From assembly GCF_000719705.1 (NCBI RefSeq), contig NZ_JOHO01000071.1:1-28074 (forward strand): DNA of 28,074 nucleotides. The letters run 5' to 3'. Below the pieces are notes generated by a model, which had not been told where the DNA came from, made no database searches, and saw only the letters and a program-made list of their open reading frames with translations. Below, piece by piece: positions 3,073 through 22,700 of this stretch (its first letter is position 1; each line of letters starts with the position of its first letter). The translations under genes and the position numbers were made by a program. This stretch comes from Streptomyces sp. NRRL S-350 (lineage in GTDB: Bacteria; Actinomycetota; Actinomycetes; Streptomycetales; Streptomycetaceae).

Positions 3073-3756
3073 TCAGTCCTCCGCTCGCCCGGGTGGACCG
3101 GGCAGGATCTCCACCCGGCAGGTCAGGTGGACCGGGCAGCCCGCCCTGACGACAGCCAACACCTGTTCTTCGTCGAGCCCTTGGCCGGGCGCTCTGTCCA
3201 GTCCCTGGCCGGGCGCCTCGTCCGGCCCTTGCCCGGGCCCCTCGTCCAGCTCTTGCTCGGGCCCGTCGTCCGGCCCTCTGGCCGGCCCCTCGTCCGGCCC
3301 CGGGCCGCGCAGCGGCCAGACCCGGACCAGCAGTTCGCCGTTCGGCGCGGGCGGCAGCCCGGCACCGGCGGCGGTGGACCAGGAAGCGCCGCCGCCGTCC
3401 ACGATCTCGGCGCCGGCGCCCAGCACCAGGCGCAGCCGTTCGGCGAGTCCGCGCCGGGTGCCGCGCCAGCGGTGCAGTTCCACCGCGCGTTCGACCACCG
3501 CACGGCGCACCTCCTCCGGCCACGCCGGGTCGACGTCCACCGCTACCCAGGACGCCAGCCAGTCGAGGAAGTCGGGCGGCGCGAGGCGGGGCCGGAAGTA
3601 CGCGGGCAGGCTGTCCAGGGTGGTGAAGACGGGGGCGAGGACGGTGTCCAGGCCGGCCGTGAACCGCTGGGCGAAGTCGTCCTCGGCGAACAGCGCGGGG
3701 AGGAGTTCGCCGATCGGGTGCGGGCTGGGCAGTCCCGGGATGGCTGCTCGGGTCAT
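3073..3756 (-). CDS. Tail protein I-like baseplate wedge protein (CIS baseplate)
   Basis: 227 aa, probable baseplate wedge component related to the phage tail protein I / TIGR02242 group. Evidence: an N-terminal helical segment with the pattern LPALFAEDDFAQRFTAGLD, then FLDWLASWV (63-71), then HRWRGTRRGLAERLRLVLG (95-113), all typical of these proteins, and its position directly after baseplate J. The expected C-terminal beta strands (ELLVRVWPL at 141-149 and VHLTCRVEI at 209-217) are separated by about 46 residues of an acidic Gly/Pro repeat (152-197). That insertion is unusual. The start overlaps the end of the baseplate J gene by four bases (ATGA), so translation is probably coupled. Confidence 0.8.
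   Translation of the reverse strand: MTRAAIPGLPSPHPIGELLPALFAEDDFAQRFTAGLDTVLAPVFTTLDSLPAYFRPRLAPPDFLDWLASWVAVDVDPAWPEEVRRAVVERAVELHRWRGTRRGLAERLRLVLGAGAEIVDGGGASWSTAAGAGLPPAPNGELLVRVWPLRGPGPDEGPARGPDDGPEQELDEGPGQGPDEAPGQGLDRAPGQGLDEEQVLAVVRAGCPVHLTCRVEILPGPPGRAED
3166..3303 (-). repeat. Octapeptide-coding tandem repeat inside the wedge gene
   Basis: About five to six degenerate 24-base units encode an eight-residue repeat of the type QGLDEAPG / QGPDEAPG / RGPDDGPE, at residues 152-197 of the wedge protein. The unit length is a multiple of three, so copy-number changes keep the frame. The repeat is acidic and Gly/Pro-rich, hence probably a flexible surface loop. Confidence 0.85.
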
Positions 3757-5714: not shown

Positions 5715-6136
5715 CAGTTCTCGCTCCCGTCCGCCGAGCTGGGGGACTCCGGGATCGTGTAGAAGGGGAAGACCAGGTTGCGGCGGTCGTTCGTGGCGCG
5801 GACGGTGTAGTGCACGTCGATGTAGAGCGTGCCCTCCTCGATGCTGTCGAAGGCGATCACCACGTCGTCGACCTCGATGCGCGGCTCCCAGCGTTCCAGG
5901 GCGATGCGCACCTCGCGTGCGATCCGTCCGGCGGTGGTGCTGTCGCCGGGGGCGAAGACGTACTCGTGGATGCCGCAGCCGAACTCGGGCCGCATCGGCC
6001 GCTCGCCGGGGGCCGTGCCGAGGATGAGCCGGATGGCCTCCGCGATCTCCCGCTCCCGGTCGACCATGCCGATGCCGCCGGTGGCGTTCACCCGCAGCGG
6101 GAAGGCCCAGCCCCGGCCGATGAAGCTCGCGCTCAT
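5714..6136 (-). CDS. cis9: gp25-like baseplate wedge protein (GPW/gp25 family)
   Basis: 140 aa, about the usual length for the GPW/gp25 lysozyme-like wedge family (no enzymatic role expected). Recognised by the N-terminal pattern GRGWAFPLRVNATGGIGMVD, the central EAIRLILGTAPGERPMRPEFGCGIHEYVF and the terminal strands of the form DVHYTVRATNDRRNLVFPF. This protein connects the sheath to the spike/hub and nucleates sheath assembly in related systems. A good ribosome site (AGGAGG) precedes the ATG. It lies between PAAR and baseplate J, the expected order. Confidence 0.93.
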   Translation of the reverse strand: MSASFIGRGWAFPLRVNATGGIGMVDREREIAEAIRLILGTAPGERPMRPEFGCGIHEYVFAPGDSTTAGRIAREVRIALERWEPRIEVDDVVIAFDSIEEGTLYIDVHYTVRATNDRRNLVFPFYTIPESPSSADGSEN

Positions 6137-6170
6137 GCGCCCGCCCTCCTGTTCCGCTCGTCGCGCCGGC

Positions 6171-6482
6171 TCATATGACGCCTCCGATCAGCACGTTGAG
6201 CGCACCGGAGGTGATGGTGGCGCCGCAGGTCGTCTTGTCCTCCACGCGGGCGGCGGGGAGTCCGCCGATCAGCACCATTCCCCTGGTGGCCGTGCCGAGG
6301 GAGGGCTCGACGAGGTTGGCGGGGCCCATTTCCGCGTGCGGGACGCAGACGTGGAGGCTGCCGACGACCGCGGCGGGTCGGCCGCCGATCAGCACGGTCG
6401 CCACCTTGAGGGCGCCCGGCGGCGGGGTGGTGAGGGCGCCGCCGTGGTCGGTGAGGTCGCCGGTCCGGGCTGCGGGGGGCAT
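6171..6482 (-). CDS. cis10: PAAR-like spike-tip protein
   Basis: 103 aa from the ATG at 6482, which has GGAG seven bases upstream; a start at 6524 is possible but has no ribosome site. The sequence shows PAAR-type features: GDLTDHGG near the start, paired VLIGG(R/L)PAA segments, conserved HVCVPH and DKTTCGATITSGALNVLIGG. PAAR proteins cap the VgrG spike with a sharp cone, often coordinating a metal through His/Cys residues. It lies directly downstream of the spike gene and 34 bases upstream of the gp25-like gene. Confidence 0.9.
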   Translation of the reverse strand: MPPAARTGDLTDHGGALTTPPPGALKVATVLIGGRPAAVVGSLHVCVPHAEMGPANLVEPSLGTATRGMVLIGGLPAARVEDKTTCGATITSGALNVLIGGVI

Positions 6483-6502
6483 GTACGGTCTCCATTCCGA
6501 TG

Positions 6503-6524
6503 GTGCCCCCTGAAACGCGGGCAC
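6503..6524 (+). other. Hairpin with T-rich tail, antisense to the CIS operon
   Basis: Arms GTGCCC (6503-6508) and GGGCAC (6519-6524) enclose a 10-base loop. On the plus strand they are followed by GAATTTTCTTTCTG, the most AT-rich patch between the spike and PAAR genes. In plus orientation this looks like a small terminator. On the minus strand it lies just before the PAAR ribosome site. Its role is unknown. Confidence 0.4.
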
Positions 6525-6564: not shown

Positions 6565-8343
6565 TCAGTTGAGGCGGACGAACGCCCCCCTGATCACGGC
6601 CTCGGCGCCGCCGTCGACGGTGACGGCGGTCGTGCCCCGGAGGGTCACCGATCCGCCGCGCACGTTCACCTCTCCGGTGCCCGCGTCGAGGGTGATGCCG
6701 GTGGAGGAGAGGCGCACGGTGCTTCCCGCCGCGCCGCCCACGCCGTGGACGGTCAGGACGATCTCGCCGCTCTGCTGGTCGAGCCTGACCTCCAGCTTCT
6801 TGTCCCCGCTCGCCAGCCGGACCCCGGACTTGCCGCCCGGCACGTCCAGCAGCTCCAGCCGGTGGCCCGAACGGGAGACCACGGAACGGCGGTTGACCTT
6901 GCCGGAGCCCGCGTCGACCAGCGGCACGTCGTGCGGCGAGGGCCGGTCCACGCCGTTGTAGAGCCCGCCCAGCACGTACGGGCTGTCCAGGTCGCCCTGC
7001 TCGAACCCGACCAGCACTTCGTCGTTGACCTCGGGGCTGACGATGCCGCCGCCCCCGTTCCCGCCCCACTGCACGGTGCGCACCCAGTCGGAGACGTAGG
7101 TGTCGTCCAGCCAGGGGAACTTCAGCTTCACCCAGCCGCGCTGCCCGTCGCCCGGCTCCCGGACGTCGGTGACCACGGCGACGGCCAGGCCCGGCATCCG
7201 GGGCCCGCGCGGCGGCGCGTTGCCGCCGGTGACCAGCCCGGCCAGGGAGCGGTCCGGTGCCGCGCTGACCACGACGGTGGTGCGGTAGCCGCGGAACGGT
7301 TCGAGGAGGTGGCGCACCCCCGTGGCGGTGTAGCGGCCGGCGAAGGCCGCCCCGACGTTGCCCAGGGCGACGGCGACGCCCGCCCGCAGCCGCGGGTTGC
7401 CCTCGACGACCACCTCCAGTTCGCCGAAGCCGGCGGCCACCGAGGCGGCCAGCGACCGGGCGGCGGCGGAGGTCTCCGCCTGGGTGCGGTACGGGGTGTC
7501 GGCGACGGTCAGCCGGGCCGGGCCGGGGAAGGCCGAGGTCACCGTCGCGGGGCTCATCCCCGGCTGCACCGTCCGGGAGGTCACCGACGGCTCGGTGGCG
7601 ACCAGGGCGCTCTTGGTGGTGACGTTCCAGCCGCGCGCCTCGACGGTGTCCGCGCCGGCGACGCCGGTCAGCACGCCGCGCAGCTCCAGCAGGTTGCGGC
7701 CGTACTCCAGGACCAGCGGGCTCTGCGGCGCCGGCGTGGACGGGGCCGGTGCGCCCGACGCCGGCTCGGGCCGGACGAACTCCAGCTGCCCGTCGTCGTC
7801 CACGCGCACCTGCGCGCCGCTCTCCTGCGCCAGGAACTGCAGGAACTCCCAGTCCGGGACGTTCGCCTGGGACAGCTGCTGGTGGACCACCGGGAAGGAG
7901 TCGATCCGACCGCAGGCCAGGCCCGCGTCCGCGGCCACCTGGCGGACGATGTCGGCCGTCGTCATGTTCCGGAAGGCCTTCACCCGGCGCCCGCGCATCA
8001 GCCGGTGGGTGACCGCCGAGGCCCGCACCACGGTGTACGAGCCGGTGGTGTCCACCTCCAGCTCCAGCGCGGTCACCTCGCCGGTGAACAGCCGCACCTG
8101 GGTGTGCCCCTGCACGGTGACCACCGACACCCGCAGCTTCGTACCGATGGTGATGCCGGTCGCGGCGAGGAAGGTGTGGTTGGCGTCCCGGAAGGTCAGC
8201 ACCGCGGTGTCCGGCAGGCCGACGCTCTCCTCGATGTCGCAGGAGACCAGTTGGGCCGCCCAGACCGGCGGCAGCGGGCCCGGCGCCTCGACGACGGGAT
8301 CCGCGGCGAAGGGCCGGCCGCCGCGGGACTCGGGAGTGGTCAC
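6565..8343 (-). CDS. cis8: VgrG-like central spike protein
   Basis: 592 aa central spike combining a gp27-like hub (about 1-370) with a gp5-like OB fold (about 378-465, including RGWVKLKFPWLDD, VNDEVLVGFEQGD and PYVLGGLYNGVDRP, all classic VgrG/gpV motifs). A short C-terminal beta-helix ends in TTAVTVDGGAEAVIRGAFV. No effector domain follows the beta-helix, so cargo would have to be carried in the tube or by the PAAR protein. The start overlaps the end of the LysM gene by four bases (ATGA). Confidence 0.95.
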   Translation of the reverse strand: MTTPESRGGRPFAADPVVEAPGPLPPVWAAQLVSCDIEESVGLPDTAVLTFRDANHTFLAATGITIGTKLRVSVVTVQGHTQVRLFTGEVTALELEVDTTGSYTVVRASAVTHRLMRGRRVKAFRNMTTADIVRQVAADAGLACGRIDSFPVVHQQLSQANVPDWEFLQFLAQESGAQVRVDDDGQLEFVRPEPASGAPAPSTPAPQSPLVLEYGRNLLELRGVLTGVAGADTVEARGWNVTTKSALVATEPSVTSRTVQPGMSPATVTSAFPGPARLTVADTPYRTQAETSAAARSLAASVAAGFGELEVVVEGNPRLRAGVAVALGNVGAAFAGRYTATGVRHLLEPFRGYRTTVVVSAAPDRSLAGLVTGGNAPPRGPRMPGLAVAVVTDVREPGDGQRGWVKLKFPWLDDTYVSDWVRTVQWGGNGGGGIVSPEVNDEVLVGFEQGDLDSPYVLGGLYNGVDRPSPHDVPLVDAGSGKVNRRSVVSRSGHRLELLDVPGGKSGVRLASGDKKLEVRLDQQSGEIVLTVHGVGGAAGSTVRLSSTGITLDAGTGEVNVRGGSVTLRGTTAVTVDGGAEAVIRGAFVRLN

Positions 8344-9062
8344 GGTCGTCCGCCTTGGGTGAGTTCGTCGATCCCGGGCACGATCAGCTCCGCGCCGGGG
8401 ACCAGGGTCATCGGATCGTCGATGTCGTTGACCTCCGCGATGGTGCGCCAGGCCGTCGCGTCCCCGTACGCGCGCCAGGCGAGCAGCGGCAGGCTGTCAC
8501 CCGCGATCACCCGGTGGGTGCTGCGGGCCTCCGGCGAGCCGGAGGTCGGGTTCTGGCCGGCCGGGTCGACGCTGGCCTCGTCGATGGTGAGCGAGCAGAC
8601 CGCGCGCAGCGGATTGCCGTCGACGTCGAAGAGCGTGTAGGTGACGGAGAGGCCGGTCAGCACCCCGTTGAACGAGGTCGTCTTCAAGGTGCCCCAGTCC
8701 AGCCGGATCCACGGGCTGGCCGGCGTCTTGCGCGCCAGGCTGGTCGGGGTCGGCACGCAGGCCGTCATCAGCTGCTCGACCGCCCGCTCCACCGAGTTGT
8801 CGTGCGTCGCGGTCGAATCCAGGAACACGTCGAGCGAGAGCGAGCGCGGTCCGCTGCCGACGAACTCCGGCAACGCCGACTGGCCGGCCATCCGGGACGG
8901 CGTGCGCCGCCACTCCGTGGTCTTGCGCAGCACCAGCGTCGCCGGGTTGAACTGGAGCGGAAGCCGCACGAGCGCCCCGCCGGGCTGGGCACCGACCGTG
9001 GACGGGGGCTCCATGATGGTCAGTTGGGCCCGGGTGACGCTCGCGGGGACCGCCGGGGACAT
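8340..9062 (-). CDS. cis7: LysM-containing hub/spike-adaptor protein (gp53-like)
   Basis: 240 aa from the ATG at 9062, which has AAGGAG seven bases upstream. The N-terminal beta-rich part (LPLQFNPATLVLRKTTEWRR, SLSLDVFLDST, WGTLKTTSFNGVLTGLSVTY) matches the conserved eCIS protein equivalent to Afp7/PVC7. The C-terminus (about 183-232) is a LysM-like module, starting THRVIAGDSLPLLAWRAYGD and ending VPGAELIVPG. In contractile tails this class staples neighbouring baseplate wedges or the hub; the LysM here is thought to be structural rather than peptidoglycan-binding. Longer open frames upstream overlap the giant disordered gene and are rejected as starts. Confidence 0.9.
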   Translation of the reverse strand: MSPAVPASVTRAQLTIMEPPSTVGAQPGGALVRLPLQFNPATLVLRKTTEWRRTPSRMAGQSALPEFVGSGPRSLSLDVFLDSTATHDNSVERAVEQLMTACVPTPTSLARKTPASPWIRLDWGTLKTTSFNGVLTGLSVTYTLFDVDGNPLRAVCSLTIDEASVDPAGQNPTSGSPEARSTHRVIAGDSLPLLAWRAYGDATAWRTIAEVNDIDDPMTLVPGAELIVPGIDELTQGGRP

Positions 9063-9136: not shown

Positions 9137-9562
9137 TCAGGACGGGCGCAGGCCCGCGTGGGCGATCTCCAGGGTCTCCATCGCCGCCTGCGAGCTGGAC
9201 GGGTCGAAGGACGGCCCCTCCCACCGCACCGGGACGATCCCGAGCACCTGCCAGCCGACGATCCGGCTCAGGTCGGGCCGCAGCGCCACGATCTCCCCGT
9301 CCTTCGGTTCGACCTTCCGGACGATCTCGCCCAGCCAGCGCGCGATCTTGAGGGTGTCCGCGGTGACCGCGCGGCTCAGCGTGATGTTCGACCAGGTGAT
9401 ACGGCCCGGCAGCTGCCAGGCGAAACCGTTGTTGCCACCCTCCGCGTACTGCTCGATCTCCACCTGCGCCCCCAGACCCGAGCAGGTGGTGAACTCGCCC
9501 AGGTCGTTGCCACCGATGGTCAGACTGAAGAACACACTGGTCGCGAAGATGTTGTCGGTCAT
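9137..9562 (-). CDS. cis5: Second tube protein / tube initiator (T4 gp19-like family)
   Basis: 141 aa from the ATG at 9562 (AGAAGG 8 bases upstream); an earlier start at 9595 would add 11 residues. It is a paralogue of the main tube protein at 14117: both have a LTIGGNDLGEF / VQLGGYNVES type N-terminus and a C-terminal RWEGP followed by Ser/Ala and an ETL/ETV strand. In eCIS the second tube protein usually sits between the hub and the first ring of the main tube. Its location next to the hub and spike genes supports that initiator role. Confidence 0.88.
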   Translation of the reverse strand: MTDNIFATSVFFSLTIGGNDLGEFTTCSGLGAQVEIEQYAEGGNNGFAWQLPGRITWSNITLSRAVTADTLKIARWLGEIVRKVEPKDGEIVALRPDLSRIVGWQVLGIVPVRWEGPSFDPSSSQAAMETLEIAHAGLRPS

Positions 9563-9637: not shown

Positions 9638-12600
9638 TCAGCGGCGCACGTCGTACGGTCGCCCGCTGCGCTCCCTCCCCCGACGCAGCTCGGTGCGCAG
9701 CAGCCGCCCGACGGGCTCGACCAGGCGCCGGGCCAGTTCGTCGAGGTCGGCGATCCCGGCGACCCCGGTGGCATGGGCGTCGGCGGGCTCGGCCGGTGAT
9801 CCACCGGCGTCCGCCGCACGTCGTGCGCCGGCCTGGGACGGCGAGGCGGTCGACCGGCCTGTCTGCGGGGCGGCCTGCACGGTGGTCGACGTCCGGGCCG
9901 GTACGGCAGTCAGCGGCACCCCCACCAGTCCCGCCTGCTCGGCCACCCGCTGCAGCACCCGCGCCGTACCGGCCGACGGCAGCGCCGTACCGGCCGACGG
10001 CAGCGCGGGGCCGGCCGGGGCGGACGGCGCCGCCGAGGCGGACCATACGGAAGAGGCGCCCGCAGCCCGCGACACGACGGGCGAGGACCCGGCGGCCGGC
10101 GGCGAACCCGCTGCCCGCCCAAGACCGGCCGTCGCCGGGGACAGCTGCACCGGCGACGGCTGCGGGGACCGCGCCCCGGCCGGAAGCCGCTGGGCCGACG
10201 GGGCCGTCGGCGGCGCCGGCCGGACCACCGGCGGGCGCGGAGCCGACCCGGCAGCGGACGGCGCGGCGAACGACGCAGCGGAGCCGCCGGGCCCCGGCCG
10301 CCCTCCCGACGCCGGCGCGGCGACCCGCTGCACGGCCGGGGGGCCGCCTGCGGACGACACCGCCGCACGGGCGCGGCCGTGCGCGGCGGGCAGCGGGTCG
10401 CTCTGCGTCGAACTCCCCCGCCCCGACGGCTGCTCGGCCGCACCCCGGCCGGCACCACGCGCCGACGACCGCCGCGCACGCGAACGCTGCAGCACACCCG
10501 CGAGCCCACGCGCCGCAGCCCCGCCCACACCTGCGCCCGCACCGGCACCCGTACCTGCACCCGCGCCTGACGAGCGGCCCGGCGCCGGGGCCACCGGGGT
10601 CGCGCCGGTCGGCGCCCCGCCCGGCTGCGTCGAAGGCCGAACGGCCACACTCCGACCGTCGACCTGCTCCGCCCGTTCCGCCCGGAACGCCTGTTCCGTC
10701 GAACGCCGCGCACGCGAACGCTGCAGCACACCCGCGAGCCCGCGCGCCGCACCGGCACCCGCACCGGACGCCTGGCCCTGCGCTGGTGCTGGGCCCGAAA
10801 CTCCGGACCCCGACGAACCTGGCTCCGCCGCCGATGGACCGGCGGCGGAGCGGCCGCCTCCCGCCCCCGGCGTGTGCCGCGAGCGCGAGGACTGCGGCAC
10901 GGCCCCGGCGCGGGACGCGCGACCGCCGGACGAGCGACCGCCGGACGCGCGACCGCCGGACGACGTCTCCTGCCCGGCAGCGGTCGAGTCGCCGTCCGCG
11001 CCCGGTTGGAGCGCCCTGGGCCAAACGGCCGGCACCACGGGCGTGGCGGGCGCCGCCGCACCGGTGCCGGTACGAGCGCCGCCACCGGTCACGGAGGGCG
11101 GCGTCGGGGCTGCGAGGGCGAACGTCATCGGGCGTTCGCCGATCAGTCCACGCCTCCGGCCGGTGACCGCGACGGCCCGCTGCACGCCCCAGCCTCCGAC
11201 CGCCGGCCGCGCCGGAACCGCCGGGCCGCCGCCGCTACCGTGCGGAGCACTCCCCTGGCCCGGGGCCTGGGCAGGACCGGTCCGGGGCGCGGGCAGGGTC
11301 TGCTGCGGCGCAACCCCCGGCCGGTGCTCCGACCCGGCGCCGGGCGTCGGGACGGCGGAACGGCCACCGGCCGAGCCACTCCCCGATCCCGGCGCCGGCG
11401 CCAACGCCGAAGCCGACGGGGCATCTCCGGGGCGCTGGACGGCACGCTGGACGGCACGTTGAACGCGCGGCCCTTCGCCGGCCGACGGCGAAGCAGCGGT
11501 CGGCGCGCCCGAACCGCCCTCGACCGAGCCGCGCTGACGCCGAGCCGGCGGCGCCGTCGATGCCACAGAAGCCGCAGCGGCCGGAGAAGCCGTTGTGTCC
11601 GTGGGAGCCGAAGCCTCGCCGGAACGCCGGACAGCGCGCTGCACCCGCAGCGCTTCACCGGTCGCAGCTCCCGCCGCAGCCCCGGCGGCGGCGGGCCTGG
11701 CAGCGGCAGAGCCGGCAGCGGCAGGGCCGGCCTGTTCCGCCGCGCTCCTGGTGCTGCTGCCTGCGGCACCGGTCGCCGCCGGGCCCGTGAGCCGCCGGAC
11801 CGGCCCGCGGCCGCCGAGCAGTGGCGCGGTGCCGCGCGGTGCCGCCGCCGTGGGCGGCAACGCGTCGAGGGGCGCACCCAGGCCTCCGCGGGTACGGGCG
11901 GGGGCCGGGTCGGGGCGGACCTGGTCGGTGCTCGCGGGGCGTTCGGTGCCTTCCGGGCGGGCAGCGCGCTCGGGGGCTGCCGCCGACGGTGTGCGCGCGG
12001 AAGTGCCTGTCCCGGACGGCGCGCGCTGGACGGATGCGCCGTCGGCGGCCCCACGCACGGGACGGGACGGTGTCGAGCCTCCCGACTGGGTGGCCGTACG
12101 GGCGCCGCCCCTTTGGGTGGCGTCACGGTGCCCGTTCCCCGTCTGCCGGGCGCCGTCGGGGCCGGCCGTCTCGGCTCGGGTGGCCCCCGTGTCGGTCGGA
12201 ACGACCGGCATGGGCGGCAGACCCGAGGCGGTGTCGGGGCGCTGACGGCCGGTGGCGGCCAGGGGTGCGGCAGTCGCGGGCAGCGAGGTCAGGGGCTCGC
12301 CGAGGACTGGGCGTGCGGGCGTGGCCACGCCCGGCGCGACGGCGCGTTGGACAGCCCCTTCGCCCGGGCCGCGCCTCGCGGGCGCGGACGCTGTGGTCTC
12401 CTCCGGCCTCGCTTGCGTCGGCGTGACGGCTTCGCCGCTTCCGGGCGCGGGCGCGCCGCCGACCGGGTCCGCCGCCGGGGCGGGCCGCGGTGTGTCCGTG
12501 CCGCGGCTCGGCGGCTCGGTGGCGGCGGCCGGCGTCCTGGCCGGTGTCCTGATCGGCCCCGGGACCACCGTCACCGGGCGGGCGGACACCGCCAGGGGGC

Positions 12601-13462
12601 GCCGCGCCACGATCAGCGGTTCGCCGACGGAACGGGGGCGCACCGGGTGGGGCGGACTCCCCTCACCGCTCGGGCGCGGGACCGCGACGGCCTTTCCCGG
12701 CGGCGTCGACTCAGGCTTCGTCACCTCGGGTGTCGTCGCACCAGGCTTCGTCGCGCCAGGCTTCGTCGCGCCAGGTGGCGCGGCCTCAGGCGTCGCCACC
12801 CGGCCGTCCGGCACGGCCGTACGGTCGGCCCCGCCGGCGCGCACCGCTCGCTGGGCCGACCGTACGGGAAGCCGCCGCAGTCCGACCGAGCGCTGAACAG
12901 GCCGCTTCTGCGCCGGTTGCCCGGCGCGGACCGACCCGGCTGACCCGGCTGACCCGGTCGCCTCACCTGCGCGTGATCCGACGGCCTCAGCTGCTGCGCT
13001 CGCCCCTCCGTCGGCCGATCCCGACGTCCTGGTGGCGACCGGCAGGGCAGCCCCGCCTCCGCCCGCGGCGGCGGAGGAGGAGGCCGGTGCAGTCGATACG
13101 ACCGGTGTCGCCACCGCCCGCAGGATCCCCGCCGGGGCGGACGGAAGGACCGCGTGGCCGAGCGGACCGCACAGCGAGGGGTCCTGCCACGCGGAGAGCC
13201 GGGACCGGAACTTCAGGCCGTCACTGACCCCGTGCGCCGTCCCGGCCACGGTCGGGACCAGCGGTCGCACCGCGCGCCACCCCTCGTCCCCCGCCGCCGG
13301 GCGCCGCCCGCCGACAGCGGAACCGCCGGCGGCTGAACCACCGGTGCCCGTGGTGCCCGCGGGGCCGGTGACGCCACCGGTCACACCACCGGTCGCACCA
13401 CCGCCCGCCGCCTCACCCGCCGCCCGGCGGCTGATCCAGTCCCGAAGCCCCACCCTGCTCAC
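9638..13462 (-). CDS. Giant Pro/Ala/Gly-rich disordered protein in the tape-measure position
   Basis: About 1274 aa from the GTG at 13462, which overlaps the stop of the preceding small gene (GTGA). Another GTG lies at 13453. I recognise no catalytic domain. A short N-terminal motif (RVGLRDWISRRAAG) is followed by a compact-looking segment at about 59-120 (WRAVRPLVPTVAG, then KFRSRLSAWQDPSLCGPLGHA). Then about 1100 residues of Pro/Ala/Gly/Ser/Arg-rich sequence carry many (V/L)QR motifs (VQRAVQR, VLQRSRARRS, VQRVAAP). A C-terminal amphipathic helix ends the protein (LDELARRLVEPVGRLLRTEL). It follows the sheath, tube and chaperone-like genes and precedes the tube initiator, which is the tape-measure slot of P2-like tails. 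It lacks the coiled coil expected of a tape measure, so cargo or scaffold is an alternative. Several in-frame DNA repeats suggest expansion. Confidence 0.7.
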   Translation of the reverse strand: MSRVGLRDWISRRAAGEAAGGGATGGVTGGVTGPAGTTGTGGSAAGGSAVGGRRPAAGDEGWRAVRPLVPTVAGTAHGVSDGLKFRSRLSAWQDPSLCGPLGHAVLPSAPAGILRAVATPVVSTAPASSSAAAGGGGAALPVATRTSGSADGGASAAAEAVGSRAGEATGSAGSAGSVRAGQPAQKRPVQRSVGLRRLPVRSAQRAVRAGGADRTAVPDGRVATPEAAPPGATKPGATKPGATTPEVTKPESTPPGKAVAVPRPSGEGSPPHPVRPRSVGEPLIVARRPLAVSARPVTVVPGPIRTPARTPAAATEPPSRGTDTPRPAPAADPVGGAPAPGSGEAVTPTQARPEETTASAPARRGPGEGAVQRAVAPGVATPARPVLGEPLTSLPATAAPLAATGRQRPDTASGLPPMPVVPTDTGATRAETAGPDGARQTGNGHRDATQRGGARTATQSGGSTPSRPVRGAADGASVQRAPSGTGTSARTPSAAAPERAARPEGTERPASTDQVRPDPAPARTRGGLGAPLDALPPTAAAPRGTAPLLGGRGPVRRLTGPAATGAAGSSTRSAAEQAGPAAAGSAAARPAAAGAAAGAATGEALRVQRAVRRSGEASAPTDTTASPAAAASVASTAPPARRQRGSVEGGSGAPTAASPSAGEGPRVQRAVQRAVQRPGDAPSASALAPAPGSGSGSAGGRSAVPTPGAGSEHRPGVAPQQTLPAPRTGPAQAPGQGSAPHGSGGGPAVPARPAVGGWGVQRAVAVTGRRRGLIGERPMTFALAAPTPPSVTGGGARTGTGAAAPATPVVPAVWPRALQPGADGDSTAAGQETSSGGRASGGRSSGGRASRAGAVPQSSRSRHTPGAGGGRSAAGPSAAEPGSSGSGVSGPAPAQGQASGAGAGAARGLAGVLQRSRARRSTEQAFRAERAEQVDGRSVAVRPSTQPGGAPTGATPVAPAPGRSSGAGAGTGAGAGAGVGGAAARGLAGVLQRSRARRSSARGAGRGAAEQPSGRGSSTQSDPLPAAHGRARAAVSSAGGPPAVQRVAAPASGGRPGPGGSAASFAAPSAAGSAPRPPVVRPAPPTAPSAQRLPAGARSPQPSPVQLSPATAGLGRAAGSPPAAGSSPVVSRAAGASSVWSASAAPSAPAGPALPSAGTALPSAGTARVLQRVAEQAGLVGVPLTAVPARTSTTVQAAPQTGRSTASPSQAGARRAADAGGSPAEPADAHATGVAGIADLDELARRLVEPVGRLLRTELRRGRERSGRPYDVRR
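9961..10002. repeat. 21-bp perfect tandem repeat (2 copies) in the giant gene
   Basis: A unit beginning GCGCCGTACCGGCC is repeated exactly at 9961-9981 and 9982-10002. On the coding strand it encodes a seven-residue repeat (LPSAGTA). It lies in the disordered part of the giant protein, close to its C-terminus. Confidence 0.85.
10470..10517. repeat. 48-bp dispersed repeat, copy 1
   Basis: Nearly identical (one mismatch) to 10704-10751. It encodes the segment AARGLAGVLQRSRARR of the giant protein. The copies are 234 bases apart, in the same frame. Confidence 0.85.
10704..10751. repeat. 48-bp dispersed repeat, copy 2
   Basis: Partner of 10470-10517, differing by one base. A recent duplication or conversion within the gene would explain the near identity at DNA level. 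Confidence 0.85.
10921..10965. repeat. 15-bp tandem repeat (3 copies) in the giant gene
   Basis: Three units of GACCGCCGGACGNGC type, giving a five-residue repeat (SGGRA/SGGRS) in the disordered region. The third unit diverges at its end. Confidence 0.75.
12736..12780. repeat. 15-bp tandem repeat (3 copies) in the giant gene
   Basis: Three units of the form TCGCGCCAGGCTTCG, encoding the pentapeptide repeat TKPGA. The first and last units carry substitutions. Confidence 0.75.
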
Positions 13463-13617
13463 CCGCCTTCGTTGACACGGGTGTTGAGCCGTGCGATCTC
13501 GCGCACCCACTGCCCGCGTTCACGGTGGGTGAGGTCGAGGATGTCCTCCCGCTGCCAGTGGAAGTGGTAGGCGATGTACGCGATCTCCTCGTACAGCCGA
13601 GCAGGCGCGTACGTCAC
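13459..13617 (-). CDS. Small E'-like tail assembly chaperone (DUF6760-type), 52 aa
   Basis: Short gene starting at GTG 13617, which overlaps the stop of the upstream gene as GTGA, and ending at 13459, where it overlaps the next GTG. The product reads VTYAPARLYEEIAYIAYHFH for its first 20 residues, then WQREDILDLTHRERGQWVRE. The pattern of Ile-Ala...Phe-His-Trp, a short acidic helix, and Trp-(V/R)-RE matches the small GpE-type tail proteins of P2-like phages (IA-x-IFHW...L..L..WRE). I therefore read it as the E'-like partner of a tail assembly chaperone that would bind the tape-measure protein. The similarity is judged by eye. Confidence 0.8.
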   Translation of the reverse strand: MTYAPARLYEEIAYIAYHFHWQREDILDLTHRERGQWVREIARLNTRVNEGG

Positions 13618-14120
13618 GATTCCCCCAGGCGCCCACCGGCGAGGTCGACCTCGAAGGCGCCGTCGCAGTGCGGGCAGGTCACCGCGGCGCGCGTGTGGCC
13701 TTCGCTGTTGATCCGCTGGTAGAGGTCCTGGAGGAAGGCGACGTCGGTGGCGTACATCCGCTCGACGATGCCGGCGTGCACGTCGGTGATGTCGCCGAGG
13801 CTGGTGATCACGTGGCTGAGCAGCACCACGCTCAGGTACGCCGGGTTCTCCTTGACCCGCAGGTCGATCTGCGGCATCAGTTCGTCGCGGGCGGTGGCCA
13901 GGCGCATGGTGCCGTGCCGGTGCACGCCGCCCTCGTCGTCGACGTAGCCGAGCGGCAGCTCGAACTCGAACTCGGTGCGCGGTGCGTGCCCCCGGGGCCG
14001 GGACCCGGTCGGCCCCGGCTGTCCCGGCTGCCCCGTGGGCTGCTGCTGTTGCGGCGGCGCGGTGTTCTGCTGGGCCGGGGCCCGTTCCAGCAGTTCGTCA
14101 AGGCCGATCCGTCGCCTCAC
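13614..14120 (-). CDS. Tail assembly chaperone / T4 gp26-like protein
   Basis: 168 aa starting at GTG 14120, which overlaps the tube stop codon (GTGA). Residues about 15-48 are Gln/Pro/Gly-rich linker. The core begins EFEFELPLGYVDDEGGVHRH and continues with TMRLATARDELMPQIDLRVK, followed by a helical region (LSVVLLSHVITSLGDI). It ends with a CPHC pair (about 149-152) that may bind metal as a dimer. The LPxGYVD...G..HR.G.MR.AT..DE pattern is that of phage tail assembly chaperone or gp26-like families next to tube genes. With the small gene behind it, it makes an E/E' pair. Precise role is inferred from position. Confidence 0.75.
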   Translation of the reverse strand: MRRRIGLDELLERAPAQQNTAPPQQQQPTGQPGQPGPTGSRPRGHAPRTEFEFELPLGYVDDEGGVHRHGTMRLATARDELMPQIDLRVKENPAYLSVVLLSHVITSLGDITDVHAGIVERMYATDVAFLQDLYQRINSEGHTRAAVTCPHCDGAFEVDLAGGRLGES

Positions 14121-14557
14121 TCTACGCTGATCTCCTCGAACACGATGGTCACGGTCTCCGTCGCGGCACTGGACTCGCCCGCGGTGAGCGTGGGGCCCTC
14201 CCAGCGGCTGGCCCAGGCGTTGGTGAGCTGGATGCGCCGCAGGGTGGCACCGGTGGTGTCCTTGACCTCGATGGTGAGGTTCTGGCGCGCGGTGTTGATC
14301 GCCCCGTTGTTGAGGGTTTCCTTGATCCAGTTGGTGAACGCGCCGCTCTTGTCGAGGCCGCGGGTGATCGTCACCTCGCCGGGCAGCCGGGCGCCCGGCT
14401 GCTTGCGGACGATCAGTTTGCCTTCCTGGGTCACCTGCTTGTACTCGACGACCTCCTGGTCGACCGTCAGGTTGCTGATCTCCTTGACGGACTCGACGTT
14501 GTAGCCGCCGAGTTGGACGCCGAAGATGTGTGTGGAGAGCGGATCGCCTTCAGCCAT
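14117..14557 (-). CDS. cis1: Main inner tube protein (T4 gp19-like)
   Basis: 146 aa, the usual size of eCIS/phage tube monomers. Sequence features are DPLSTHIFGVQLGGYNVES at the N-terminus, VVEYKQVTQEGKLIVRKQPG in the middle, VTITRGLDKSGAFTNWIKE, and the closing RWEGPTL...ATETVTIVFEE strand. The protein stacks as hexameric rings inside the sheath. It lies 42 bases after the sheath gene, with a GGAAGGTGA ribosome site, and ends in a four-base overlap with the chaperone-like gene. Confidence 0.95.
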   Translation of the reverse strand: MAEGDPLSTHIFGVQLGGYNVESVKEISNLTVDQEVVEYKQVTQEGKLIVRKQPGARLPGEVTITRGLDKSGAFTNWIKETLNNGAINTARQNLTIEVKDTTGATLRRIQLTNAWASRWEGPTLTAGESSAATETVTIVFEEISVE

Positions 14558-14599: not shown

Positions 14600-16141
14600 T
14601 CACTCGTTGACGAGGCTCGTGCTGTCTGAGAACTGGGACAGCCGGAACACCACGAACTCCGCCGGCTTCACCGGAGAGACCCCGATCTCGCAGATCACCT
14701 GGCCGAGGTCGATGGACTCCGGCGGGTTGTTGTCGCGGTCGCACTTGACGTAGAAGGCCTCGGCCGCGGTCTGGCCGAACAGCGCCCCGCGCCGCCACTC
14801 CTCGGTGAGGAACGCGGTGATGTTCCGGCGGATGCTGGACCACAGCCGGTCGTCGTTGGGTTCGAAGACCACCCACTGGGTCCCCAGGAGGATGGACTCC
14901 TCCAGGTAGTTGAAGAGCCGGCGCACGTTCAGGTAGCGCCAGGCCGGGTCGGACGAGAGGGTGCGCGCACCCCAGATCCGGATGCCGCGCCCGGGGAACG
15001 CCCGTACGCAGTTGACGCCGATCGGGTTCAGCAGGTCCTGTTCGCCCTTGCTGAGGCGGATCTCCAGGTCCACCGCGCCGCGGATGACCTCGTTGGCCGG
15101 CGCCTTGTGCACGCCGCGCTCGGCGTCGCTGCGCGCCCACACCCCGGCGACGTGACCGCTCGGCGGAACGAGCACGTTGCGGCCGCTCGCCGGGTCGAAC
15201 ACCTTGATCCACGGGTAGTAGAGGGCGGCGTAGCGGGAGTCGAAGCCCGCCTCCTCGTTGCGCCAGGTCCGCATCCGCTGGGCGTTCAGGCCGGGCGGCG
15301 GGTCCAGGACGGCGATCCGGTCGCCCATCTGCTCGCAGTGCGACATGACCGCCAGCTGGACGGTCCGCAGACCCTCGTCGTCGAGGTCGCCGCGCTGGTA
15401 GGCGCTCATCAGGTCGGGCACCGCGACCATGGTGATCTCGTCGATCGCCTCCAGGCCGGCGAAGCCGGTCCGCGCGGCGGCGTCGCCGACGTACTCGGCG
15501 GGGTCGAGCCGGGTGGCGGTGGCCGGGGCCGACGCGGGTGCGGGGGCGGCGGCGAGGGCGTGGGTCGCGCGCTCGGGGCGGCTCGGTGCGGTGCCGGTCT
15601 GTTCGGTGACCGCGACCAGCTTCGACTCGCGCAGCTGGGTGACGACGTAGCCCTTGGTGTTCCTGCGGGTCGAGACGTCGTAGGTCTCCGCGACCTCGCT
15701 GCCGCGGCGGACCAGGAGTCGGAACCGGTCCTCGGGGACGTTCTCGCCCTCGACGTCGGCGATCTCGACGGACACGTCGCCCGCGCCGGGCAGGGCCGAG
15801 AACAGGAAGCCGGAGACCGCGACGGGCGGGGGCGTGCTGACGGCGGGGGCGGGCGTGCCGCCGGCCGCCTGCCGGGCCGGGTCGCCGATCCGCACGACGT
15901 AGGCGGAGCCGCCGCCGTTGGCGAAGAACCCGTACACGGCGTGCGCCAGGTAGGTGCCCTCGGTGAATCCGCCGAACCGCTGGACGAACTGGTCCCAGTT
16001 GGTCACCAGCGTGGGCTCGTGGAAGGGTCCGGTCTCGGCGAAGCCGACGAAAGCGGCGACGGCCGTGCCGACGCCCTCGATCGGGCGGGCACCGGACTGG
16101 ACCTCCTCCACGTATACGCCCGGGGTGAGGTACGACGGCAT
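14600..16141 (-). CDS. cis2: Contractile tail sheath protein
   Basis: 513 aa from the ATG at 16141, chosen because GAAGGAG ends five bases upstream and the product begins MPSYLTPGVYVEEVQSG, the classic sheath N-terminus. Other sheath signatures are TAVAAFVGFAETGP, GGGSAYVVRIGD, PPSGHVAGVWARSD (about 370-385), FPGRGIRIWGARTLSSDP and YLNVRRLFNYLEESI. The variable outer domain holds an Ala/Pro-rich stretch near residue 200. Only one sheath gene is visible, unlike Afp/PVC systems with several. It has its own upstream intergenic region containing the element at 16191-16256. Confidence 0.96.
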   Translation of the reverse strand: MPSYLTPGVYVEEVQSGARPIEGVGTAVAAFVGFAETGPFHEPTLVTNWDQFVQRFGGFTEGTYLAHAVYGFFANGGGSAYVVRIGDPARQAAGGTPAPAVSTPPPVAVSGFLFSALPGAGDVSVEIADVEGENVPEDRFRLLVRRGSEVAETYDVSTRRNTKGYVVTQLRESKLVAVTEQTGTAPSRPERATHALAAAPAPASAPATATRLDPAEYVGDAAARTGFAGLEAIDEITMVAVPDLMSAYQRGDLDDEGLRTVQLAVMSHCEQMGDRIAVLDPPPGLNAQRMRTWRNEEAGFDSRYAALYYPWIKVFDPASGRNVLVPPSGHVAGVWARSDAERGVHKAPANEVIRGAVDLEIRLSKGEQDLLNPIGVNCVRAFPGRGIRIWGARTLSSDPAWRYLNVRRLFNYLEESILLGTQWVVFEPNDDRLWSSIRRNITAFLTEEWRRGALFGQTAAEAFYVKCDRDNNPPESIDLGQVICEIGVSPVKPAEFVVFRLSQFSDSTSLVNE

Positions 16142-16357: not shown

Positions 16358-16385
16358 CGGGTCAGCCGCGCCGGGTCAGCCGCGC
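16358..16385. repeat. 14-bp tandem duplication across the ATPase stop codon
   Basis: CCGGGTCAGCCGCG occurs at 16358-16371 and 16372-16385. The second copy contains the ATPase stop codon (TGA, 16376-16378 on the minus strand). Confidence 0.8.
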
Positions 16386-18688
16386 CCGCCGCCCCCGAGG
16401 ACGCTCAGCCACGGCCCGAACTCGCTCTCCAGCACCAGCCGACCGAGCTTGCGGTACTCCCCGACGACCGCGGCGACCAGCTGCGCCATGCCCAGCGGCC
16501 CGCCCGCCCCCGCGGCCAGGTAGGCCGCCGAGACCGCGCAGGCCCGGATGGAGCCGCCGGTCAGCTCGAAGCGCCGGGCGCAGAAGTCCAGGTCGAGGTC
16601 GTCCCCGCGGGGCAGCCGCGACCCCAGGCAGCGGTCCCACAGCACGCGCCGCTGTGCCTCGTCGGGCAGCGGGAACTCCGCGATGACGTCGAGCCGCCGG
16701 GTGAACGCCTCGTCGAGGTTGGCGCGCAGGTTGGACGTGAGCACTGCGATCCCCTCGAACGACTCCATGCGCTGGAGCAGGTAGGCCGTCTCGACGTTGG
16801 CGTGGCGGTCGTGGGCGTCCTTGACCTGCGAACGCTTCCCGAACAGCGCGTCCGCCTCGTCGAACAGCAGGACGCCGTTCACCTGCGCGGCCTCGGTGAA
16901 GATGCGTTCCAGGTTCTTCTCGGTCTCGCCGATGTACTTGTCCACCACGGTGGACAGGTCCACGACGTACAGCTCCATGCCGAGTTCTGCGGCGACCACC
17001 TCGGCCGACATCGTCTTGCCGGTGCCGGACTCCCCGGCGAACAGGGCGATCACCCCGTTCCCCCGGCCGCCGCCCGGCCGCATCCGCCAGCGCCCGAGCA
17101 CCTGTTCACGATGCCGGGCCCGCATCACCAGCTCGCGCAGCCGGCCCTCGGTGGGCTCGGGCAGCACGAGGTCGGCCCAGCCGACGGCGGGCTCGATCCG
17201 GCGGGCGAGGCGGGCCAGGCCCGCGGCGTTCTGCGCCCGTACGGCGGCCCGCAGGTCCTCGGCGTTCACCGGGCGCCGCTCGGCGGCCGCCGTCCGGGCC
17301 GCCACCCCGGCGGCGCGCTCCAGCTTCTCGTGGTCCACCCGGTAGGCGGCCACCGCCTCGGTCAGCTCTCCACTCAGCTCCTGGCTCGGCTCGCCACCCG
17401 GTTCCCCGCCCGGCGCCTCGGTCGGCGTCCCGGTCAGCGGCGCCCGTCCGGCTCGCGCGGCCGGGCCACCCGGGTGGGTCCGGGCGGCGGCCAGCGCGCG
17501 GGCCCACCGTTCGGCCCGGGCGCGCGCATCCGGCGGCGGGACGGTGACCAACATCGGGCTCTCCCGCGCCCAGTCCGGATCCCACACCTGCGGGCCGTGG
17601 ACGAGCAACGGGACGCCGGCGAGTTCCGCGCACAGCTCGCGCAGCAGGGCCGCCCGCTCGGGCCGTTCCGGTTCGAGCCGGTCCAGCGGGCCGAGCACCA
17701 CGCCGCAACCGGCCAGCCGCGCCTCGCGGGCGAGCACCCGCAGGACGTTCCCGGGCGGGCGGGCGGCCAGCGCGGCGGCGTCGACGACCAGGGGCGCTCC
17801 GCCGTCGGCCGCGAGGGCGGCCACCGCCAGCGGGCCGGCGTGCCCGTCCCGGTCCAGCAGGTGCACCAGTCCGCCGTCCGCCGCCGCCGCGCGCAGCCGC
17901 TCGACGGGCTCCGCGGCCGCTCCGGGGCCGCCCGCGGGCGCGGCGAAGGGGCCGGCGACGGGCGCGGCTCGGCGGGCGAGCCCGACGAGCGCGGCGTCCG
18001 GCTCGTCGTCGCCGAGCAGATGGGCCGTCACCCGGTCCGGCACGCGCAGCGCACGGGAGAGCAGGGGCCGTTCCGGCTCGGAGACCTCCAGGAGCCCCCC
18101 GGCGATCAGGGGGGCCCGCGCGGAGAACCGGAAGCGGCCCGCGCCGAAGCCCGGCAGTCCGCACAGCCGCAGGGCCAGCCCGATGGTCGGGCGGCGCCGG
18201 GTCAGGTCGTCGTTGAGGTAGCCGTAGAGCTGTTCGAAGCGGGTGTCCAGGTCGGGGGCGAGGGCCACCAGCAGGAGTTCGACATCCACCGGGAGCAGCC
18301 CGAAGGCCTCGCTGAGCCGGGCGAGCCGTGAGCCGGGCGGCGGCGCGGGCGCGTCATCGGGGGCCGTACCGTCGTGGTACGTCGTGGCGGAGGCCGCCAG
18401 GATCCGCTCCGCCGCCTCCGGGCTGAGGTACTGGCCCCGGTACGGGTCGTCCGGGTCGGGGTCGTCGGCCCGGCGCTCGCGCACCGCGGTCCGGACCCGC
18501 TGTTCGACCCGGTGCAGCCGTTCCCAGAGGTGGTCGAGGCCGGCCGGGGTCTCGCCGGGGGCCGTCGTCGCCGGGGCGTCCGACGCGGCCGAGGCCGGGC
18601 CGGCGGAGGCACCGGAGGCAGCCGAAGTAGCCGACGTATCCGATGCATCCGCTGCGGCTGACCCGGCCGTCCGGAGGTCGAGGCTCAT
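16376..18688 (-). CDS. cis15: AAA+ ATPase of the contractile injection system
   Basis: 770 aa from the ATG at 18688, which overlaps the DUF4255 stop by four bases. The N-terminus is Ala/Ser/Thr-rich (about 8-45), followed by a winged-helix-like segment (YRGQYLSPEAAERILAAS) and a degenerate ATPase-like middle region. The C-terminal AAA module is complete: Walker A GESGTGKT (Lys about 558), Walker B LLFDEAD (Asp about 610, Glu 611), sensor region VLTSNLRANLDEAFTRR with a probable arginine finger, and a C-terminal lid. eCIS clusters nearly always carry such an ATPase. It is proposed to help assembly or loading, though the mechanism is unsettled. A longer open frame to 19159 overlaps the DUF4255 gene and is rejected. 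Confidence 0.93.
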   Translation of the reverse strand: MSLDLRTAGSAAADASDTSATSAASGASAGPASAASDAPATTAPGETPAGLDHLWERLHRVEQRVRTAVRERRADDPDPDDPYRGQYLSPEAAERILAASATTYHDGTAPDDAPAPPPGSRLARLSEAFGLLPVDVELLLVALAPDLDTRFEQLYGYLNDDLTRRRPTIGLALRLCGLPGFGAGRFRFSARAPLIAGGLLEVSEPERPLLSRALRVPDRVTAHLLGDDEPDAALVGLARRAAPVAGPFAAPAGGPGAAAEPVERLRAAAADGGLVHLLDRDGHAGPLAVAALAADGGAPLVVDAAALAARPPGNVLRVLAREARLAGCGVVLGPLDRLEPERPERAALLRELCAELAGVPLLVHGPQVWDPDWARESPMLVTVPPPDARARAERWARALAAARTHPGGPAARAGRAPLTGTPTEAPGGEPGGEPSQELSGELTEAVAAYRVDHEKLERAAGVAARTAAAERRPVNAEDLRAAVRAQNAAGLARLARRIEPAVGWADLVLPEPTEGRLRELVMRARHREQVLGRWRMRPGGGRGNGVIALFAGESGTGKTMSAEVVAAELGMELYVVDLSTVVDKYIGETEKNLERIFTEAAQVNGVLLFDEADALFGKRSQVKDAHDRHANVETAYLLQRMESFEGIAVLTSNLRANLDEAFTRRLDVIAEFPLPDEAQRRVLWDRCLGSRLPRGDDLDLDFCARRFELTGGSIRACAVSAAYLAAGAGGPLGMAQLVAAVVGEYRKLGRLVLESEFGPWLSVLGGGGRG

Positions 18689-19395
18689 CGCGTCCCGCCC
18701 CGGGTCCGGCGGCCGGGCGGCAGTGCGCGGTCCCGGGGCGCGGCGAAGCCGTCCGCGCCGGGGTCCGCGCCGCCGTGGTAGCGCAGTCGGCGGCCCGGGC
18801 CGCCGGCGGGTGCCGCGCTGTCCCTGGTGGTGTCCTGGGCGTGCACCACCAGGCCTTCGGTGACGGGCGGACCGACGGGGGTGCGCCCGCCGGGCAGCGG
18901 GGCGAGCGCCCTGAGGTCGATCGAGGGGCGCAGCTCCCCGCCGAGGGCGGACCACACGTCGGGCACCGACGGCAGGCCCGTGTCGCGCCCCGCGATGTCG
19001 AGCGTGACGGTCAGGCCGAGCTCGGCGAGCGTCCCGGTGAGCACCCGGGCGGGCAGCGCGTCCACGGCGGTCAGGCACTGCAACACCTCGGCCAGCAGCC
19101 GGTGTTCGTCCTGCGGCCGGCTGGTCCAGACGGTGACCAGGTAGGCCAGCTCGAACCACCGGGGCGCGGCCCGGTGGGCGACCACCATGCCGTCCGCGTC
19201 GTGTTCCGCGACGGCGCCGGTCTGCCGGCGGTCCGTCTCCTCGCGGATCCCGTACAGGAAGACGCTGACCGTCGGCGCGGTGCGCCGGGCGGTGAAGTCC
19301 CGGGTGGGCGCGTCGAAGACCACTTCTACCCCGCGCTCCGGCAGGCCGGCCTCGGCGAGCAGCAGCCGCAGTGCCTCGTCGACTTCGTGGATCAT
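18685..19395 (-). CDS. cis16: DUF4255 tube terminator / cap protein
   Basis: 236 aa. The N-terminus (MIHEVDEALRLLLAEAG), the segment PTVSVFLYGIREE, and FELAYLVTVWTSRPQDEHRL are standard for DUF4255/Pvc16-type proteins, which cap the distal end of the tube and fix its length. The last about 50 residues are Gly/Arg/Pro-rich and probably disordered. Its ATG overlaps the stop of the large secreted propeller gene upstream (ATGA), and it overlaps the ATPase downstream in the same way. It may therefore depend on translation of the propeller gene. Confidence 0.92.
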   Translation of the reverse strand: MIHEVDEALRLLLAEAGLPERGVEVVFDAPTRDFTARRTAPTVSVFLYGIREETDRRQTGAVAEHDADGMVVAHRAAPRWFELAYLVTVWTSRPQDEHRLLAEVLQCLTAVDALPARVLTGTLAELGLTVTLDIAGRDTGLPSVPDVWSALGGELRPSIDLRALAPLPGGRTPVGPPVTEGLVVHAQDTTRDSAAPAGGPGRRLRYHGGADPGADGFAAPRDRALPPGRRTRGGTR

Positions 19396-22649: not shown

Positions 22650-22700
22650 GCTCGACCTCACAGGATGGCAGGGGCGGTCTCCCCCGCAGTCTCCCCGGCC

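Follow-up and report, generated by a model that had tools for sequence, protein, structure and literature searches.

Phages lambda and P2 arrange their tail genes in the same order of tube, chaperone, chaperone extension in the -1 frame and tape measure (G/GT/H in lambda, E/E+E'/T in P2), and in the P2 record E+E', the neighbour of T, is annotated as the product of a -1 frameshift. Contractile injection systems (CIS) of the Afp type have a tape measure, Afp14/Cis14, which is likewise proposed to control length. In reports on the Streptomyces clusters Afp14/Cis14 is described as absent (PMC10066040, PMC12237407), which sets it apart from the gene treated here, and the first of these notes the absence of any typical tape-measure gene. 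The S. coelicolor particle is reported to be 268 nm long, with 60 tube layers and identical lengths, again with a tape-measure gene noted as absent (PMC12237407); lengths of about 230 nm and an average of 295 nm (PMC10020575) are also on record. Here we analyse a window of 28,074 nucleotides, the whole stretch studied, from Streptomyces sp. NRRL S-350 (contig NZ_JOHO01000071.1), in which a CIS cluster carries three genes for proteins of 168, 52 and 1274 amino acids (the last hereafter the giant) directly behind the tube gene.

The four genes lie consecutively on the minus strand, in the order tube, 168-aa, 52-aa and giant, and each neighbouring pair (tube/168-aa, 168-aa/52-aa and 52-aa/giant) overlaps by 4 nt, the second overlap reading GTGA and the giant starting with GTG. 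The original prediction had recognised this order and these overlaps as a P2-like E/E'/T module, and its coordinates and sizes are correct. The features on which the argument rests are:

14117..14557, minus strand, inner tube protein in the Cis1a position, 146 aa (Phage_T4_gp19, 4.6e-25; TIGR02241, 1.8e-27)
13614..14120, minus strand, 168-aa putative tail assembly chaperone (TAC) (PHROG profile, fold matches, hhalign)
13620..13626, minus strand, putative slippery heptamer G_GGG_GAA, in phase, at the TAC gene end (codon conservation; 'fivetwo' motif)
13571..13617, minus strand, predicted stem-loop just 3' of the heptamer, overlapping the start of the 52-aa gene (folding energy; two-sided pair changes)
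13459..13617, minus strand, 52-aa DUF6760 protein, P2 E'/GpE-like (PF20546; GpE similarity)
9638..13462, minus strand, 1274-aa Ala/Gly/Pro-rich giant with VQR motifs, candidate disordered tape measure (position, composition)
13127..13279, minus strand, conserved N-terminal stretch of the giant, residues 62-112 (residue conservation in the order-A members defined below)
9638..9748, minus strand, conserved C-terminal end of the giant (C-termini compared across relatives)

We conclude that streptomycete CIS probably keep a phage-type tail-length module of TAC, DUF6760 protein and giant, with a -1 frameshift and a ruler. The gene order, the homology of the TAC, the weak homology of DUF6760, the conservation of heptamer and stem, and the presence of tape measures at the giant's place in relatives are observations.

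DUF6760 was found in 33 of the 61 genomes searched in the genus and in 23 of the 396 searched in the phylum, the window's own genome being counted in both. Relatives were taken from 34 of the 35 other places in the genus (one small contig was omitted) and 20 of the 22 in the phylum, and a further 80 named loci were collected with the S. coelicolor Cis1b sequence as query; 26 of these 80, many of them contig edges, had no DUF6760 match. The best-scoring relatives of the 168-aa protein were mostly named Kitasatospora. Between the 168-aa and 52-aa genes the 4-nt overlap recurs in 31/34 loci of the genus (1 nt in L056, L060 and L065) and in all 54 named loci that contain the junction, and since the overlap is kept across both sets this arrangement is not a matter of chance. 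No such conservation is seen where the 52-aa gene meets the giant, most Streptomyces-type loci having the first start of the giant 3 nt past the stop. Of the 103 loci in which DUF6760 and the LysM gene occur together, 95 follow the order sheath, tube, TAC, DUF6760, giant, second tube gene, LysM (order A), seven have the second tube gene before the large gene (order B) and one is unclear; the giant's slot is filled by an open reading frame (ORF) of at least 200 aa in 101 of them. Order B or something similar, with the second tube gene ahead of the large gene, is seen in L060, L180-L185 and L187. L188-L200 and others are contigs from a viral collection with CIS-like clusters, which perhaps are not phages.

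The 52-aa protein matches Pfam DUF6760 (PF20546), a family of unknown function, at 8e-15 and 55.1 bits (curated cut-off 27), as do 24 of the 24 members scanned; no paper naming DUF6760 was found in the literature searched. It had been taken for a GpE-type product from an IA..(I/F)HW...W motif, and this motif is indeed present (IA..FHW, 15 residues, W) and aligns by eye, without gaps, to the P2 E' frame. The two best PHROG families of DUF6760 reach E 0.063 and 0.13, neither significant alone, and are the same two that P2 E' matches at 1e-5 and 1.5e-21. Phage_P2_GpE (PF06528) was matched by 3/24 DUF6760 members at a best E of 0.018, the window's protein not being among them, and because this match is not significant we call the protein GpE-like and do not file it as a GpE member. 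Comparison of profiles gave hhalign E 1.8e-4 (probability 48.7) between DUF6760 and an alignment of 21 GpE sequences, and with trimmed alignments a score of 20.4 against a maximum of 12.1 in column-shuffled decoys, 0/200 of which were as good (P0172 was omitted here). Judged by profile, DUF6760 thus appears to resemble P2 E' (GpE) weakly but above chance, and the assignment as GpE-type is borne out to this extent.

For the 168-aa protein, called chaperone-like in the original prediction, a profile search returned phrog_508 (tail assembly chaperone) at 8.3e-5 for the window's protein and at E <=1 for 21/21 diverse members, the best at 1.9e-8. Its family also aligned at hhalign E 2.5e-18 with alignment A4, which represents larger chaperones, most of them double modules; the match covers their first half. 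The predicted structure has a core at about residues 50-140 (block mean pLDDT >=89) and gave eight matches at E <=0.001 in a viral fold search, with a phage 'tape measure chaperone' at rank 29 (E 0.06); a C-terminal CPHC piece is zinc-ribbon-like by weak matches only. These profile and fold comparisons support a tail or hub assembly chaperone. They do not extend to the first chaperone of P2, E, which the 168-aa protein does not detectably resemble: hhalign gave no similarity, Phage_TAC_7 (P2 E) was matched by 1/21 members at E 0.22, and direct homology to P2 E was rejected. The protein likewise gave no tblastn match to phage records at E 1, no sequence match to PDB chains and no PDB fold match at E <=1e-3, where 3klu YqbN (rank 5, E 1.4) was the only fair candidate. 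A P2-E scan of viral contigs returned 80 near-identical P2 relatives, and the GpE relatives were therefore drawn from a different set. The TAC genes of L205 and L207-L209 are tandem double modules with two CxxC pieces, and the double-module TAC of L205 matches both hub and chaperone PHROG families.

The TAC gene ends in CGC CTG GGG GAA TCG TGA, and the DUF6760 frame is -1 relative to it. An in-phase G_GGG_GAA stands within the last 8 codons of 97/108 TAC genes, compared with 2/17264 other codon positions; among genes with the same residue the codon is GGG in 100/100 and GAA in 96% of 102, against a usage in the same TAC genes of 0.28 for GGG and 0.16 for GAA. Where GGGGGAA is missing, L062 and L065 carry GGGGGGA. 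Among the relatives from the viral collection, 7/8 junctions have an in-phase GGGGGAA, GGGGGGA, GGGGGGG or GGGGGAG at the same place, L194 being without, and L189, L190 and L196 have no ATG or GTG at the junction. The heptamer was found in 0/7 of the order-B or similar loci tested (L060, L180, L181, L183, L184, L185 and L187), of which only L185 showed a low folding z. The slip site of P2 is a T-run, in contrast to the GGGGGAA of the streptomycete CIS, whose extension frame also differs from those of lambda and P2 in usually having a GTG or ATG at the junction. A close parallel comes from the SEA-PHAGES data, which concern phages of actinobacteria, whereas most relatives here are cellular CIS loci. 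In those data the identical heptamer, the 'fivetwo' motif, is reported for frameshift genes, nearly all of them tail assembly chaperones, in a similarly high-GC setting (PMC10274946).

A predicted stem-loop begins 2 nt past the heptamer. In the window it folds at -25.3 kcal/mol (z -3.31; 1/200 shuffles as low), and 0/200 synonymous controls of the junction fold as low. Sliding folds over 22 loci, chosen by hand for diversity from the 108, had their lowest point directly behind the heptamer (mean z -4.35; 22/22 below -1.5), while the lowest window clear of that site reached -2.0 and the DUF6760/giant junction gave no comparable signal. A second, weaker folding minimum lies within the TAC gene, about -222 from the stop (mean z -2.0, 11/22 loci). 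Because the chosen loci left out L055, L061, L063, L064, L168 and L186, the fold test was extended to the full set of 96 loci that carry the heptamer in the fixed position, with a mean z of -3.57 and 93/96 below -1.5; against synonymous recodings 90/96 were below -1.5, with a mean of -2.28. As many of these loci are closely related, 15 representatives of less than 93% identity were examined separately, and 12/15 fell below -1.5 against synonymous recodings, with L061 at the limit. A 15-pair stem was formed in 80.9% of cells, compared with at most 46.7% paired for slid versions, and six of its pairs carried changes on both sides, four of five measures being reached by 0/500 shuffles. Rfam gave three matches, far below gathering scores and all on the plus, that is the non-coding, strand. 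The folding and pairing measures support a conserved RNA structure downstream of the heptamer.

Several points must be set against a frameshift at this site. The 2-nt spacer between heptamer and stem is shorter than usual. The dissenting three of the 15 representatives, L055, L063 and L168, do not exceed their synonymous controls, the fifth pair measure was reached by 46/500 shuffles, and RNAalifold, run unconstrained on the 15-sequence alignment, chose another, weak structure and not the stem. L174 and L178 carry GGGGCGA and yet keep the stem. The GTG present at the junction in 93/108 loci may allow separate translation of DUF6760, and a search for natural TAC-DUF6760 fusions yielded two candidates, neither of which was valid (in P0186, a TAC, the frame changes for the second half, and P0187 lacks a TAC part). 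Weighing these points, we regard a programmed -1 frameshift as likely in order-A clusters; the TAC/DUF6760 pair would probably be expressed like G/GT of lambda or E/E+E' of P2, with a TAC-DUF6760 fusion probably also made alongside the free 52-aa protein. Such a frameshift signal, which we consider probable from the sequence, exceeds what had been claimed for this junction.

In order A the giants measure 547-1486 aa (median 1146; 89 of the 95 loci, six with N runs being omitted), the large genes of order B 116-1451 aa, some short values in this slot being perhaps frame or assembly errors, and the identity of the relatives' giants to that of the window is low (22-42%). Both ends are conserved, the middle is Pro/Ala-rich and not conserved, and by composition the giant appears disordered. 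Near the N-terminus a W..LPP stretch is followed by a further motif, and in 26 order-A members conservation is 25/26 for W62, 21/26 for H103, 23/26 for A109 and 22/26 for G112; the predicted fold of the N-terminal 170 aa is of low confidence (pLDDT 57.6, pTM 0.19). The C-terminal end resembles, by appearance only, an amphipathic helix, and the C-termini of order-A and order-B giants match each other (0/200 decoys as good; six sequences made up the order-B set, which excluded loci whose slot gene was very short or unclear). In the middles of 81 giants (of 92, those with X letters dropped beforehand) VQR occurs 895 times against 16.6 expected from shuffled sequence, a 51-fold enrichment, and [VIL]QR sites number 12 in the window giant, 20-21 in L069 and L070 of the S. 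coelicolor group and 1-4 in three distant giants. Regular spacing of the VQR motifs was considered and rejected, the spacing being irregular.

The occupant of the same slot in two relatives speaks for a tape measure. The gene after DUF6760 in L201 encodes a 1114-aa tape measure (phrog_167, 3.8e-12), and that after the DUF6760-like stretch of L206 (found by tblastn) a 713-aa tape measure (phrog_8462, 5.2e-14), which also matches phrog_28, the family of P2 T, at 1.8e-8. Six other large proteins scanned together with these two gave no tape-measure match below 0.05, a level that was not reached in L205 and L208, which share the cluster type of L201 and L206. In clusters of the L206 type the same C-terminus is found on seven long proteins of tape-measure kind (645-714 aa; the PHROG scan covered only that of L206) and on two disordered-looking ones of 436 and 454 aa (0/200 decoys), and a disordered protein can therefore occupy the tape-measure place. 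For the window-type C-terminus a larger set of sequences gave, against classical tape measures, 0/200 decoys as good at E 0.006, and 1/200 against the two disordered proteins; the order-B C-terminus gave 0/200 and later 1/200 and 22/200 against classical tape measures. These results are mixed and therefore not used as proof of a link to classical tape measures.

In S. coelicolor, structural models were built for SCO4243-4248, 4252-4253 and 4260 and skip exactly SCO4249-4251, between Cis1b and tube, which by gene order we take to be giant, DUF6760 and TAC; of three purifications analysed by mass spectrometry, at least one is reported to have contained SCO4251 (PMC10020575). Neither chaperones that depart after assembly nor a ruler that is asymmetric and disordered would show up in such a structural map. 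Complete giants of four loci whose Cis1b is 98-100% identical to that of S. coelicolor (L067, L069, L070 and L071) measure 1285-1357 aa, or 21-23 aa for each of 60 rings, a single data point taken from relatives and not from S. coelicolor itself; L074 (Cis1b 97%) has a giant of 1433 aa, or 24 aa per ring. The diffocin tape measure is reported at 817 aa or more for 32 layers, that is at least 25.5 aa per layer (PMC10996793).

Other findings count against a ruler. Only 116-242 aa fill the giant's slot in L180, L182 and L183, and the giants of L034 (911 aa) and L035 (1243 aa) differ in length although their tubes are about 95% identical to that of the window. In four giants the middle is 14-23% Pro with a longest Pro-free run of 17-50 aa, and being Pro-rich the giants would be unable to form the usual long coiled coil, in contrast to diffocin CD1366, reported as a trimeric coiled coil (PMC10996793). 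A PHROG scan of 31 giants matched no family in any (0/31 at E 0.01) and therefore no tape-measure family, and the first comparison of the window-type C-terminus with classical tape measures was marginal (7/200 decoys as good). The proteins named by mass spectrometry in the S. coelicolor report do not include the expected product of the giant's gene, though one known structural protein was missed there as well (PMC10020575). Of the proposal that the giant is a tape measure, or something that replaced it, the position and the tape measures of L201 and L206 in the same slot thus stand, and family membership does not. Given its position, its conserved ends and the relatives with real tape measures in its place, the giant is the best available candidate for a ruler. 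The comparison with P2 holds and for the chaperones reaches beyond what had been claimed, whereas its extension to the giant, though the best account available, is unproven.

The same features would suit a disordered protein specific to actinobacterial CIS, a cargo or tether in or on the tube which the chaperones load, length being set by the cap, the sheath or the energetics of the tube. Lack of tape-measure similarity, very variable length and low identity would be expected of it, and the VQR enrichment is to our knowledge not a feature of tape measures. Tape-measure-related effectors do exist in other Streptomyces CIS: Sle1 of S. lividans and Tme of S. davawensis are large CIS-linked proteins with remote tape-measure homology according to their authors, Tme being described as about 70% disordered and carrying DUF4157 and a nuclease domain, and the gene for Sle1 as lying, together with that for a DUF4157 partner, upstream of the sheath gene (PMC13277306). 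The genome of the window, unlike these arrangements, has DUF4157 only on two other contigs. Moreover, deletion of sle1/2 is reported to leave no apparent structural defect (PMC13277306), so that the known tape-measure-like effector seems not to be the ruler, and Sle1-like effectors were rejected as length setters. The near-constant filling of the giant's slot, where effectors would come and go, the two conserved ends around a free middle, and the recognised tape measures at this place in L201 and L206 make a cargo or tether rather unlikely.

Translational coupling alone, in which GGGGG would serve as ribosome binding site for the DUF6760 GTG four bases on, with no frameshift, would account for the GTGA or ATGA overlap in 100/108 loci and for a G-rich stretch near ribosome-binding-site distance. 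We consider it improbable, for GAA is held despite its low usage where GAG would better match a Shine-Dalgarno sequence, a stem-loop right behind the heptamer would bury the start codon, relatives replace the heptamer by other G-runs, some with no ATG or GTG there, and the in-phase G_GGG_GAA is itself a reported frameshift motif (PMC10274946). Equally unlikely is that the 168-aa and 52-aa products serve hub (baseplate) assembly as chaperones like T4 gp26, with hub proteins and not the giant as their targets, since the fold matches that suggest it (TM-scores of 0.35-0.49 to the query, two of the eight bearing the name T4-like baseplate hub assembly protein and a further two that of baseplate protein) and the phrog_150 'baseplate hub' matches, confined to the double-module relatives of L201 and L205, are opposed by the annotation of phrog_508 as tail assembly chaperone, by the place of the genes between tube and giant, and by a frameshift architecture that, according to a figure legend on lambda G/GT, marks chaperones acting on the tape measure; the two roles may moreover be compatible with each other.

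Returning to the phage-type length module, we infer that frameshifting occurs, which partners the chaperone parts bind, and that the giant is located inside the tube, whose length it sets, as follows. The 168-aa gene would encode the tail assembly chaperone, and a fraction of ribosomes would slip by -1 at G_GGG_GAA, aided by the stem-loop, and then read DUF6760, giving a TAC-DUF6760 fusion that would parallel gpG/gpGT of lambda and E/E+E' of P2. The chaperones would coat the giant, the DUF6760 part would bring in tube subunits, and the tube would polymerise from the baseplate hub along the giant, pushing the chaperones off. As ruler, the giant would have its C-terminal end anchored in the hub and its N-terminal end at the cap, its disordered Pro-rich middle setting the number of rings; diffocin CD1366, whose C-terminus is reported to be anchored on the spike, offers a model for the C-terminal end (PMC10996793). 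Lambda and P2 differ from this in their setting, here a bacterial injection system, and in the occupant of the tape-measure slot, here a Pro-rich, disordered-looking protein. On balance we lean towards a cellular CIS that makes its chaperone pair by programmed -1 frameshift and uses an intrinsically disordered Pro/Ala-rich tape measure in place of a coiled coil, the VQR motifs possibly being contacts for chaperones or tube.

By title and abstract opening, none of the matches listed in the CIS literature describes this module or its frameshift. For Streptomyces CIS, of reportedly uniform length, the analysis puts forward one candidate for the ruler and two for assembly chaperones, and gives likely functions to the three unmodelled genes between tube and Cis1b. 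The heptamer is open to a one-codon test and the giant to a length test. A disordered ruler, if true, would alter what tape measures must look like, and the frameshift, if true, would tie cellular machines to phage tail assembly.

The remaining parts of the cluster identify it as a CIS with ATPase and Pvc16 cap, with sheath, tube, hub, baseplate, AAA ATPase and Pvc16_N in one place:

14600..16141, minus strand, tail sheath (Cis2) (PDB 8bky/9gtp sheath, 8.6e-222, residues 52-558; synteny)
9137..9562, minus strand, second tube protein (Cis1b, tube initiator) (Phage_T4_gp19, 2.3e-28; PDB 9gtp_a, 1.3e-41)
8340..9062, minus strand, LysM hub protein (Cis7) (CIS_tube, 7.9e-24; LysM, 8.8e-5)
6565..8343, minus strand, VgrG-like spike (Cis8) (Phage_base_V, 4.1e-16; Phage_GPD, 1e-8)
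3073..6524, minus strand, PAAR, gp25, baseplate J and tail I genes (PAAR, 3.6e-18; GPW_gp25, 2.9e-29; Baseplate_J, 3e-16; Tail_P2_I, 1.8e-15)
16376..19159, minus strand, ORF with AAA+ ATPase (Cis15) (AAA, 5.6e-24; WHD, 2.7e-28)
18856..19386, minus strand, cap protein domain Pvc16_N (Cis16) (E 2.7e-38, the sole match in the genome)

The structure 9GTP is the S. coelicolor baseplate model. The longest ORF of the sheath extends to 16294, and similarity to solved sheaths begins at its residue 52. Upstream of the ATPase gene lie a 1089-aa PD40/DUF11/CARDB protein (19392-22661) and a LuxR-type regulator (22869-23786); at the other end of the cluster, 1717-3069 encodes a zinc-ribbon protein that matches NADase_transloc (F5/8C-type) below threshold and perhaps takes the position of SCO4242. 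A search across the genome found no DUF4157 gene in the window, and two DUF4157 (eCIS_core) proteins on other contigs, at C55:11247-11462 and C53:59714-59929, are possible unlinked effectors.

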